Source: Thermoleophilum album (GTDB taxonomy: Bacteria; Actinomycetota; Thermoleophilia; Solirubrobacterales; Thermoleophilaceae). From it: a stretch of 64,000 nucleotides of DNA. Below are positions 11,693 through 50,021 of the stretch, piece after piece. The notes beneath the pieces are model-generated. The model had not been told where the DNA came from. It saw nothing but the letters and a program-made list of their open reading frames with translations, and did not search any database. The DNA is taken from the NCBI RefSeq assembly GCF_900108055.1, contig NZ_FNWJ01000001.1:1054001-1118000 (forward strand), given 5' to 3'. Made by a program: the position numbers and the translations under genes. Position 1 is the stretch's first letter; every line of letters begins with the position of its first letter.

Positions 11693-12754
11693 GTGGCACA
11701 GCGCCGCCGCACCCGACCAGAGACGCAAGGGCGAGCAACCCGTGCGACCGGCGCCGCCGCTGCCGCAGCGTCGGGCAGAGAACGGGCGGACCGGCGAGGT
11801 TCGGTGAGCGAAGAGCAGCGCGCGGCGAACGAGGAGCACGGGTCAAGAGAGAACGAGCGGCGAGACGCTCCTGGCGACTTGCTCGCCGCGTTTCGTCGCG
11901 CTGTGGGGGGCGTGCTCGACGGTCTCCCGAGCGAACTGCGTGACGTCGTCGCGACGGCGTCGCGCCGTCTGGCTGGCGACTACGAGGAAGACGAGTGGGG
12001 TCGAGACCCGGAGTTCGAGCGCGCCCTCGAGCCACTCTTCGACTTTCTTTACGAACGCTGGTGGCGGGTGGAAGCGGTGGCTGTCGAACGGCTGCCAGCA
12101 ACCGGACCGGTGCTGCTCGTCGCCAACCACGCCGGCTTCCTGCCGTGGGATGCGCTGATGATCAAGACCGCGGTGCGACGGGAACATCCGCAGCCCCGCG
12201 AGCTGCGCTTCCTCGAGCTCGACTGGGTCTTCGACACGCCTTGGCTTTCGGCCGTCGTGCGCAAGCTCGGGGGCGTCGCTGCGACTCCCTACAACGCGCT
12301 CACGCTGCTTGAGCGCGGCGAGGCGGTGATCGCTTTCCCGGAGGGTGCGCGCGCGGCCCAGCGCCGGTTCGGGCAGCGCTATCGAATTCAGCGGTTCGGT
12401 CGTGGCGGCGTGGTGGAGATCGCGTTGCGTACCGGAGCGACGTTGCTGCCCGTCGCCGTCGTGGGTAGCGAGGAGGCGCACCCCCGGCTCGCTGACCTGC
12501 CGTGGCTTGGACGCCTCCTGGGTCTGCCGACGCTCCCGGTCACGCCGACCTTCCCGTTGCTCGGACCACTCGGTCTCGTGCCGCTGCCGGCGCGCTGGCG
12601 GATCGAGTTCTGCGAGCCGCTGGAGTTGAGTCGCCGGGGTCCCGAGGCGGCCGACGACCGCGCCTACGTCTTCGAGGTGTCGGAACGGCTGCGCGACACC
12701 CTGCAACAGCGCGTCTACGCGAACTTGGTTGCCCGCGGACCGGCCTTCTTGTGA
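11693..12754 (+). CDS. PlsC-like lysophospholipid/diacylglycerol acyltransferase (Rv0502-like)
   Basis: 353 aa, GTG start 2 bp after the epimerase stop. The first about 65 residues are a charged disordered extension. The acyltransferase domain has VLLVANHAGFLPWDAL (variant of the NHx4D motif, with His and Asp further apart than in classical PlsC), FPEGARAAQRRFG (FPEGxR glycerol-phosphate motif) and TLLPVAVVGSEEAHP. It transfers acyl chains to a lipid acceptor at the membrane. The order epimerase-acyltransferase is conserved in mycobacteria. The acceptor is unknown; phospholipid, triacylglycerol or glycolipid acylation are all possible. Confidence 0.85.
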   Translation: MAQRRRTRPETQGRATRATGAAAAAASGRERADRRGSVSEEQRAANEEHGSRENERRDAPGDLLAAFRRAVGGVLDGLPSELRDVVATASRRLAGDYEEDEWGRDPEFERALEPLFDFLYERWWRVEAVAVERLPATGPVLLVANHAGFLPWDALMIKTAVRREHPQPRELRFLELDWVFDTPWLSAVVRKLGGVAATPYNALTLLERGEAVIAFPEGARAAQRRFGQRYRIQRFGRGGVVEIALRTGATLLPVAVVGSEEAHPRLADLPWLGRLLGLPTLPVTPTFPLLGPLGLVPLPARWRIEFCEPLELSRRGPEAADDRAYVFEVSERLRDTLQQRVYANLVARGPAFL

Positions 12755-47005: not shown

Positions 47006-47078
47006 GCCCGCCTAGCTCAATTGGTAGAGCGCTGCACTTGTAATGCAGGGGTTCCCGGTTCGAGTCCGGGGGCGGGCT
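47006..47078 (+). tRNA. tRNA-Thr (anticodon TGT)
   Basis: 73-nt cloverleaf: acceptor stem GCCCGCC/GGCGGGC, D-arm AGCTCAATTGGTAGAGC, anticodon stem CTGCA/TGCAG around loop CTTGTAA (anticodon TGT, reads ACA), T-arm CCCGG-TTCGAGT-CCGGG, discriminator T. CCA is not encoded. A TACGCT -10 box lies at 46990-46995, 10 nt before the 5' end. Confidence 0.96.
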
Positions 47079-47173
47079 TTGCCCTGTTGTGCGGGCGGCC
47101 GCGATGAGGGCCACGGGTGGCGCGCAGCGCGCCTGCGTAACCGGTGCCCTTGCCGTGGGTAGCGGGTACTTGC

Positions 47174-48967
47174 ATGGCCCCTGCGAACGACAGCTCCACA
47201 GTGAGCGCGCCAGCGCCAGCGTCCGCGCGGCTGCCGGCTGGCGCGGGCGGTTCGGGGGCAGCCGATGAGCCCGCTGCAGGAGCCGATCGCCGGGCGGGTC
47301 GCCAGCCGACCAGCGACAAGCGCCTAAGACGCGACGAGCACTTACGACGCCTGCACGAGGCGACCCGGCGGCGCGGCGTCAACAAGGTTGTGTACTGGCT
47401 CACGCGGGTGGTGCTGCAGCCGCTGATCCACGCCTGGTTTCGACTCGAGCGGATCGGTCACCGCCACATACCCGACGGCCCGGTAATTCTCGCCGCTAAC
47501 CACCGCAGCTTCCTCGACCCCTTCGTGATCGGCTGCTGCCTGCGTCGACCGGTCTATTTCGTGGCTAAACGCGAGCTCTTCGAACGGCGTTTCTGGGGGC
47601 GGTACCTGAACTGGCTCGGTGCTTTCCCAGTACGGCGCGGCGAGTCCGACGAGGACGCCGTCGAAACCGCTCTCGCCCTTTTGCGCAGAGGACAGGCGGT
47701 GGTGATCTTCCCGGAGGGCACCCGTATCCGTCACGGCTCCTTGGGCAAGCCGCGGCGCGGCGTTGGCAGACTGGCGCTGGAATCGGGGGCGCCGGTAGTG
47801 CCGATCGCCGTCACCGGCACCGAGCGGGCGCGGCGCGGCTTGCTGGTGCGGCCCGTGAAGGTGCGCGTTCGTTGCGGGGCTCCGCTGCGCTTCCCCCGCG
47901 TCGAGCGTCCCTCGCCGGCCCTCGCGCGAGCGGTGCTCGAGCGGATCTGGCCACACATTCAGGTGCAGTGGGAGTGGCTCGGCGGCGACCCGCCCTTGCG
48001 CAGTGCAATGGTGCTCGGCGACGGAGCGAAAGCGGAAGCGCTCGCCGCGCTGCTCGGGCAGGCTGGTCTCAACGTGGCGCGCGGCCCGCAGGTGGAGCCG
48101 GAGGATCGAACGACCCGCGGGCGGGCGGTCGCGCGGGCGGTCGCGCGGGCCGGCTCGCGACTGCGCGGGCGGACGCTCGAGCCGTCCGGGAGCCCCGACC
48201 TCCTCGTGCTGGCCGCGTCCGCCCAGGCGCTCCCACAGTTGACGGCCGAGGCTGCGCAAGTCGTCGACGAGCGCACGCTAGTGCTGGTCGCCGCGAAGGG
48301 GCTCGTGCCGCCCCTCGGCACGACGCCGGCGGCCTACGTCTCGGAACGCTTGCGTGCGCGCGCCGTCGTCGCTCTCGGCGGGCCGGTACGTGCCGACGAC
48401 ATCGCGGCCGGTGAAGCCTGTGCGGTGGTCGCCGCCACCGACCCCGGTGCGCGTGCGCGCGTCGCGCAGGCGCTGCGCTCCGGTGGTCTCGAGGTCGAGG
48501 AGTCGAGCGACGTGGTCGGCGTCGAGCTCGCCGGCTGTGCGAACGGGGCGGCGGCGCTGGCGGCTTTGGCGGTCGGCGACGAGCGCGTGGCCCTCGCTGG
48601 TGCCGCGGCCGCACGGGTGTTCGAGGAGGTCGAGCGCCTGGGCCGCCAGCTCGGCGCCCGCCCGGACACGTTCGCGGGGCTAGCTGGTGCCGGTGAGTTG
48701 GTCAGCGCCGTGCTGTCGCGGCCCACCGCCGACGGCTGCGAGCAACCAGAGGACGCCGAGAACACATGCAGCCGCGGAGCGGCAGGGGCTCACCAGTTTC
48801 CCGCCGGTGCGCTCGAGGCGATCGCCCTCCTCGAGGGGCGCATGCGCCGAGCGGGCGTCGACGCACCGGTAACGCGGTCGCTGCGCGCGCTTCTCGAGGG
48901 TCGCATCGATCGCGCGCGTTGGCTGGAGCGGGTTCGCAGACCGCGGCCCACGCAACGCGCAGCCTGA
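47174..48967 (+). CDS. Fusion: 1-acylglycerol-3-phosphate acyltransferase + GpsA-like domain
   Basis: 597 aa from ATG 47174. Residues 1-65 are a disordered Ala/Arg-rich leader. Residues about 75-270 are a PlsC acyltransferase with the exact NHx4D motif (NHRSFLD, H110-D115), FPEGTR (179-184) and VVPIAVTGTERA. Residues about 277-597 resemble NAD-dependent glycerol-3-phosphate dehydrogenase: MVLGDGAKAEALAALL (degenerate Rossmann loop), GGPVRADDIAAGEACAVVAATD, VVGVELAGCANGAAALAAL, DTFAGLAGAGELVSAVLS. The catalytic Lys of GALKNV appears as Asn456 in GCANGA. The second domain may be inactive or regulatory. The enzyme should act in phosphatidic acid synthesis at the membrane. Confidence 0.85.
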   Translation: MAPANDSSTVSAPAPASARLPAGAGGSGAADEPAAGADRRAGRQPTSDKRLRRDEHLRRLHEATRRRGVNKVVYWLTRVVLQPLIHAWFRLERIGHRHIPDGPVILAANHRSFLDPFVIGCCLRRPVYFVAKRELFERRFWGRYLNWLGAFPVRRGESDEDAVETALALLRRGQAVVIFPEGTRIRHGSLGKPRRGVGRLALESGAPVVPIAVTGTERARRGLLVRPVKVRVRCGAPLRFPRVERPSPALARAVLERIWPHIQVQWEWLGGDPPLRSAMVLGDGAKAEALAALLGQAGLNVARGPQVEPEDRTTRGRAVARAVARAGSRLRGRTLEPSGSPDLLVLAASAQALPQLTAEAAQVVDERTLVLVAAKGLVPPLGTTPAAYVSERLRARAVVALGGPVRADDIAAGEACAVVAATDPGARARVAQALRSGGLEVEESSDVVGVELAGCANGAAALAALAVGDERVALAGAAAARVFEEVERLGRQLGARPDTFAGLAGAGELVSAVLSRPTADGCEQPEDAENTCSRGAAGAHQFPAGALEAIALLEGRMRRAGVDAPVTRSLRALLEGRIDRARWLERVRRPRPTQRAA

Positions 48968-48993: not shown

Positions 48994-49608
48994 GTGAGCG
49001 CAAGTCGCCCCTCGAAAGCCGAGCTCGACCGTGAATTCAGCGAGCTCTACCGGACGCACCTCCGCGACGTCTACAGCTACGCCTACTACCGCGTCGGCAA
49101 TCATCACGACGCCGAGGATCTGACCGAGCAGACTTTTCTGCAGGCTTACCGTCACTACGAGCGTGCACGCGCGGAAGCCAACGGACGACCGCTGCGGCCC
49201 TGGTTGATCCGCATCACCCACAACCTGGCCGCCAACTGGTTCCGCGACCGCAGCCGCCGACCACAAACTCCGCTCGAGGACGCGCAACCACTGGTGGCAC
49301 CGCACGGCACCGAGGAGCTGGCAGAGGAACGGGCCGACGCCCGCGAAGTGCTCGCGTGTGTGGCGCAGCTCCCCGAAGACCGCCGTGATGCGTTGGTCAT
49401 GCGCTTCGCGTTGGGCATGGACAATCGCGAGATCGCGCGTGCGCTCGGCCGCTCGGAAGGGGCCACGAAGGTGCTGCTCCACCGTGCGATCCGGCAGCTC
49501 GAGCGGCTTCTAGCGGAGCGACGAGGGGCGCCCGAGGGGCGCGCTGGGGAAGCGTCGCAGGGGGACGCTGCCAGCGCCGGAGACGCCTTGAGCGAGAAAG
49601 GGGCGTAG
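48994..49608 (+). CDS. ECF-type RNA polymerase sigma factor
   Basis: 204 aa from GTG 48994. Region 2: EFSELYRTHLRDVYSYAYYRVGNHHDAEDLTEQTFLQAYRHY, followed by PWLIRITHNLAANWFRDRSRR. Region 4: LPEDRRDALVMRFALGMDNREIARALGRSEGATKVLLHRAIRQLERLL. There is no region 3 or 1, so it is an extracytoplasmic-function type sigma factor. The C-terminal about 30 residues are disordered. Followed after 50 bp by a small single-pass membrane protein that could be its anti-sigma factor. The gap contains the palindrome TTCGGCGCCGAA at 49612-49623. Confidence 0.9.
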   Translation: MSASRPSKAELDREFSELYRTHLRDVYSYAYYRVGNHHDAEDLTEQTFLQAYRHYERARAEANGRPLRPWLIRITHNLAANWFRDRSRRPQTPLEDAQPLVAPHGTEELAEERADAREVLACVAQLPEDRRDALVMRFALGMDNREIARALGRSEGATKVLLHRAIRQLERLLAERRGAPEGRAGEASQGDAASAGDALSEKGA

Positions 49609-49658: not shown

Positions 49659-50021
49659 ATGGGTGAAGCCGACGTCGAAGCTCTACTGCGCGGGGCGCTG
49701 CGACCGGTCGAGCCGCAAGAGAGCCTTGCCGAGCGCCTCGAGCGGCGGCTAGTCGGTGTCCGCAGCGCGGCCGTCGACGAGCTCGCCGACTGGGAACTGC
49801 GGGCGCTGCGCGACCCGCGTCGCTGGCTTCGGGCGCTCATCGCCGTGATCTGTGGGGCGGCGGCAGCGACGGCCCTGGCCTTGCTGCGGCTGCATCAGGC
49901 TCGTCGCTCGCGGCCGCGGGGGCTCGCCGCGACCGCTGCGCGTTTGCGGTCGCAGATACGGCGCCCGCTCGAGCGCACGCAACTGCGCCGCGCGCGCGGG
50001 CGCCGGCGCATCATCGCCTGA
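49659..50021 (+). CDS. Small single-pass membrane protein next to ECF sigma
   Basis: 120 aa from ATG 49659 (GGAAGCGAAG upstream). N-terminal about 55 residues are acidic/amphipathic (EADVEALLRGALRPVEPQESLAERLERRLVGV), then one membrane segment (ALIAVICGAAAATALALL, about residues 59-76) and an Arg-rich tail (RRARGRRRIIA). There is no zinc-binding HxxxCxxC anti-sigma motif. Layout and position just after the sigma gene suggest a membrane-anchored anti-sigma-like partner, but no homology was recognised. Confidence 0.6.
   Translation: MGEADVEALLRGALRPVEPQESLAERLERRLVGVRSAAVDELADWELRALRDPRRWLRALIAVICGAAAATALALLRLHQARRSRPRGLAATAARLRSQIRRPLERTQLRRARGRRRIIA

Follow-up and report, generated by a model that had tools for sequence, protein, structure and literature searches.

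The gene at 47174..48967, on the forward strand of the window (the whole 64,000-nucleotide stretch of Thermoleophilum album DNA analysed here), encodes a PlsC-type acyltransferase joined to a GpsA-like domain. It is best explained, with a probability of about 0.7, as an ancestral bifunctional acyltransferase and glycerol-3-phosphate (G3P) dehydrogenase whose GpsA half is dead in the window genus and is kept as a folded remnant under selection. The locus would encode an order-specific lipid enzyme, in which an acyltransferase is followed by an NAD(P)H-dependent G3P dehydrogenase. Judged by its residues, the GpsA half is most likely active in most of the order, where G3P would be made from DHAP beside an acyltransferase that uses either G3P or 1-acyl-G3P. 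In the window genus a separate GpsA would supply G3P, and the fused half, being redundant, would have lost catalysis. It would persist as a folded remnant with a structural role, probably in folding, stability or oligomerisation, under purifying selection that has weakened, with the acyltransferase half still at work.

The coding sequence runs from ATG to TGA, specifies 597 aa and has known orthologues; an alternative in-frame GTG start lies upstream of the ATG, at 47144. The parts of the protein described below, and the ECF-type sigma factor gene, are likewise read from the forward strand. The PF01553 acyltransferase domain covers residues 95-213 (47456..47812, Pfam E 4.2e-30), with an intact NHx4D motif (NHRSFLD, residues 109-115, 47498..47518) and an intact FPEGTR motif (residues 179-184, 47708..47725). 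NHx4D and FPEG are present in every aligned fusion. Against TIGR00530 the acyltransferase part scores 96.5 bits, under the cut-off of 102.95. The GpsA-like domain, delimited by Pfam and by structural alignment, occupies residues ~273-593 (47990..48952); PF01210 matches at 342-423 and PF07479 at 446-578 (E about 1e-7 each, both above the gathering cut-offs). In phmmer searches against solved structures, the first half matched PlsC (5kym) and the second half GpsA (1z82/3k96). The initial annotation had proposed a PlsC-GpsA fusion with both acyltransferase motifs intact, and the ORF, the Pfam domains and the orthologues agree with it. A chance or artefactual ORF is excluded by the Pfam matches, the fold and 62 orthologous loci; nor is the fusion an assembly artefact, since it recurs in at least 40 other genomes. 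Around the gene, neither a sigma-70-type promoter nor an intrinsic terminator was matched. A second PF01553-type acyltransferase (VANHAGFLPWD, FPEGARAA) is encoded in the window at 11693-12754, and is one of six PF01553 matches in the window genome.

The fold of the C-terminal half was assessed on an AlphaFold model of the full-length protein, built from a two-sequence alignment. Mean pLDDT was 53 overall. Most of the GpsA half reached ~80, and confidence was low in the segments 305-338 and 504-541; the C-terminal half modelled alone reached a pLDDT of 50, and the full-length model was the better one. In VIA-align, residues 273-591 of the predicted structure superposed on Coxiella GpsA (3k96) with Z 26.4 and rmsd 3.1 over 277 residues, and the best 16 entries were all G3P dehydrogenases. 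Foldseek matched the model to GpsA with E 1e-13. The C-terminal half is thus predicted to have the GpsA fold, a Rossmann part followed by a helical C-terminal domain, as had been supposed from the sequence.

Catalysis by glycerol-3-phosphate dehydrogenase depends on K120, K204, D260, R269 and N270 (human numbering); N205 and T264 take part in the network, and the R269A substitution costs 4.5 million-fold in kcat/Km (PMC12874384). At the position of the catalytic lysine the window protein has Asn457 (codon AAC, 48542-48544), within GCANGA, which starts at residue 454; GGPVRADD starts at residue 402. The Lys-to-Asn change noted earlier is real, with the residue being 457 and not 456. Realignment does not bring a lysine to this position, since the column is without gaps against 91 intact GpsA domains, which have Lys in 100%. 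The loss extends well beyond the single lysine to which it had been ascribed. At K120, K204, N205, D260, T264, R269 and N270 the window protein has K, N, G, E, A, A and D, and its two congeners have S or N, Q, S, Q, A, R and R, the last two positions being of uncertain placement because the loop has been replaced. Six of the seven catalytic residues are thus gone in the window protein, namely the equivalents of Lys204, Asn205, Asp260, Thr264, Arg269 and Asn270. Asn457-Gly458 (48542..48547) stand in place of Lys-Asn (K204-N205), and Glu508 (48695..48697) in place of Asp260. Only Lys375 (48296..48298), equivalent to K120 of human GPD1, is retained, and it is Ser or Asn in the two congeners. The set of catalytic and phosphate-binding residues that marks GpsA (K120, K204, D260, R269, N270) is accordingly incomplete in the window protein, and the congeners are without K120 too.

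The surrounding sequence has diverged in the same way. Residues 515-541 (48716..48796), modelled with low confidence, are unrelated to the SRNRRAGELLG loop that binds the substrate phosphate in intact relatives; this SRN-carrying loop has been substituted, and the VPS proline is gone. The GxGxxA nucleotide loop is retained in the window species. Of the 50 columns whose residue is conserved in 90% or more of the 91 intact GpsA domains, the window protein has lost 27 and retained 23, the latter mainly glycines and other structural residues. Retention is 23-24 of 50 across the genus, 45-48 in sampled intact fusions and 50 of 50 in the stand-alone GpsA of the window genome, an intact separate gpsA (G000:C1:198551-199534) of the kind the initial annotation had asked about. 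Sequence identity breaks down in two segments, 301-350 and 526-550, which in a GpsA hold the cofactor and the substrate phosphate. From these losses the fused GpsA half is predicted to be catalytically inactive in the window genus, and with the fold kept, the earlier view of it as a pseudoenzyme in this genome is probable.

The same residues bear on the role first suggested for the domain, that of a sensor or allosteric pseudoenzyme through which the level of G3P or NADH would govern acylation; DHAP was considered here as a further ligand. The predicted GpsA fold, the purifying selection described below and the retention of the GxGxxA loop and Lys375 in the window species are consistent with such a role. 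However, the phosphate-binding loop carrying Arg269 and Asn270 has been replaced, the 301-350 region has lost conserved residues, the VPS proline is missing, Lys375 is Ser or Asn in the congeners, and other lineages have dropped the domain altogether. Because the substrate-phosphate residues and part of the cofactor region are lost, sensing of G3P or NADH is disfavoured; none of the results points to allostery, and we regard this role as improbable.

Selection on the inactivated domain was estimated from codon changes. Between the two congeners (G001 and G002), the GpsA-like domain has accumulated 12 nonsynonymous and 32 synonymous changes (dN/dS 0.14), and neutrality is rejected with p 2e-9. 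Between the window species and G001, the GpsA-like domain has a dN/dS of 0.36, compared with 0.08 in the acyltransferase half and 0.20 in the stand-alone GpsA; pairs of intact fusions gave 0.02 to 0.38. The reading frame is unbroken in the three genomes of the genus, and the window and congener proteins are 60-82% identical at residues 376-500 and 551-597. Thus the dead GpsA domain evolves faster, yet not neutrally. Loss of catalytic residues with fold and purifying selection kept, as in a conserved pseudoenzyme, is seen here on a sample of three genomes of the genus. Were the GpsA half functionless and simply heading for loss, one would expect the faster evolution and the long stem branch seen in this genus, and the decay, truncation and complete loss seen elsewhere at the same locus. 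The intact frame in three genomes, the excess of synonymous changes between the congeners and the segments that are still 60-82% identical argue against pure decay, which is unlikely. A folded remnant with a structural role fits better, and the residual purifying selection could also reflect a real new function.

Across the order, the state of the GpsA half varies at this one locus. All seven catalytic residues are present in 42 of 62 fusion loci, one conservative Thr/Ser swap being allowed, so the possibility raised earlier, that the lysine is lost throughout the architecture, is rejected. Judging by these residues, the intact fusions would have DHAP reductase activity. In 24 of the 42 genomes the intact fusion is the only GpsA detected with PF07479, and 18 have another; among the 24 is every genome of families f3 and f4 with the locus, none of which has another PF07479 match. 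The fused GpsA half is decayed in 8 genomes and absent in 12, and 18 of these 20 carry a stand-alone GpsA. The two without a detected second GpsA (G010, G184) are 84-90% complete. In three genomes (G013, G022, G181) the ORF stops roughly where the Rossmann part ends, and in others, such as G173 and G164, the acyltransferase stands alone and is followed by the same ECF sigma gene. The acyltransferase tree calls for about 8 events of decay or loss, of which 4 are required by branches with strong support. Decay is associated with a second GpsA (Fisher p 7e-4, kinship ignored); the association is non-significant with phylogenetic pairing, a test that is powerless here because there are only 4 independent pairs. 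Glycerol kinase, found in 14 of 14 genomes checked, could supply G3P even in genomes that have no GpsA. One of these, G161 (C1, a single contig, 93% complete), has no fusion, no detectable GpsA and a glycerol kinase; its membrane lipids may depend on glycerol. A single syntenic locus thus offers a natural series of intact bifunctional enzyme, dead folded domain, truncation and complete loss, in which the emergence and loss of a pseudoenzyme domain can be tested directly.

The fusion represents a single orthologous locus, present in 62 genomes of one order. In a search of 41 relatives and 199 genomes of the class it was confined to the window's order, in which all 49 matches from the 199 class genomes fall. 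Among the matches listed for 296 genomes of the phylum, no single-frame two-domain match lay outside the order. A scan of genome contigs with one protein yielded a single close relative. In the GpsA-domain tree the fused domains form one clade (96/94) beside a stand-alone clade (100/97), the window genus having a stem branch of 1.33. The conserved gene order is cysS, rlmB, sigma factor, fusion, ECF sigma, small protein and rhomboid. The location between cysS-rlmB-sigma and the ECF sigma gene is common to families f1, f3 and f4, and the ECF sigma neighbour is also present in f2. In the window this gene (48994..49608) starts 27 bp past the fusion stop, and it lies shortly 3' in all families checked, including loci without a GpsA half. 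Its constancy suggests that lipid synthesis is functionally tied to an envelope or stress regulon. A tRNA-Thr gene (anticodon TGT, 47006-47078) separates the fusion from the upstream sigma gene, and a 120-aa protein with no Pfam match is encoded after the ECF sigma gene, at 49659-50021. A plsC-gpsA operon surviving in the class as the source of the fusion was considered and rejected for the class outgroups: these have the orders aroA-cmk-plsC-der-gpsA or der-plsY-gpsA, where plsC and gpsA are not adjacent, the gene names being based on sequence reading and conserved order. In G337, another actinobacterial genome, plsC is ~24 bp upstream of gpsA.

The usual substrate of PlsC is 1-acyl-G3P. The initial annotation took the fusion to join functions of one pathway; PlsC and GpsA are indeed joined, but their steps are not consecutive unless the acyltransferase half takes G3P. 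PlsY (PF02660) is absent in 21 of 24 genomes of the order, whereas 3 of 3 class outgroups have it, and PlsX is present in 27 of 27. PF19277 detected PlsB in 0 of 27 genomes; some PlsB-like enzymes may escape this model, as E. coli was its sole match among control genomes. G027 (96% complete) encodes no PF01553 proteins beyond the fusion and one adjoining glpK, so the two acylation steps must fall to this pair or to an unknown enzyme. The loci cited for the order-wide PlsY/PlsB gap are G027:C3 and G027:C21, and a PF01553 gene adjoins glycerol kinase in three genomes (L175, L176, L177). The lack of PlsY in the order raises the question of which enzyme acylates G3P, for which some genomes offer a very short list of candidates. 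Since most of the order has neither PlsY nor a detectable PlsB, the acyltransferase half becomes a candidate for this step, and G3P as its acceptor is plausible from gene content. If the fusion acylates G3P, two consecutive reactions (DHAP to G3P to 1-acyl-G3P) would be joined and the fusion to GpsA would be explained. Replacement of PlsY by the acyltransferase half is compatible with the best explanation, as an addition to it. The PlsY gap relative to the outgroups, the universal PlsX, the PlsB result and the two PF01553 proteins of G027 speak for it; on the other hand, G3P and 1-acyl-G3P acyltransferases are inseparable by motifs, PlsB-like enzymes may lie outside PF19277 detection, and, PlsX being kept, an unknown acyl-phosphate-dependent enzyme is possible instead. 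We put it forward tentatively, at less than even odds. A broader version, in which PlsY was lost and the first phospholipid steps were re-invented as one polypeptide, with the GpsA half kept in the window genus as a structural or regulatory subunit, is conceivable and rather doubtful.

No description of a PlsC-GpsA fusion was found in the open-access papers searched. The window protein shares fold and domain order with GpsA (PF01210/PF07479; 3k96, 1z82), and most fusion orthologues also share the complete catalytic set; it differs in being fused to an acyltransferase and, in this genus, in being without the catalytic and phosphate-binding residues. With PlsC (PF01553; TIGR00530; 5kym) it shares NHx4D, FPEGTR and the overall domain, and differs in its C-terminal GpsA domain, its possible G3P acceptor and its sub-cut-off TIGR00530 score. 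The algal bidomain GPDH, exemplified by Dunaliella DsGPDH (6iuy), joins a phosphoserine phosphatase to GPDH (PMC7468427). Like the window fusion, it joins GPDH to a pathway-neighbour enzyme; unlike it, it is eukaryotic, and its partner is a glycerol-making phosphatase of another fold. Aas (acyl-ACP synthetase/acyltransferase), to which the acyltransferase part of the window protein has NCBIfam matches, likewise joins a PF01553 acyltransferase to a lipid-pathway enzyme, but there the partner is an acyl-ACP synthetase and not GpsA.
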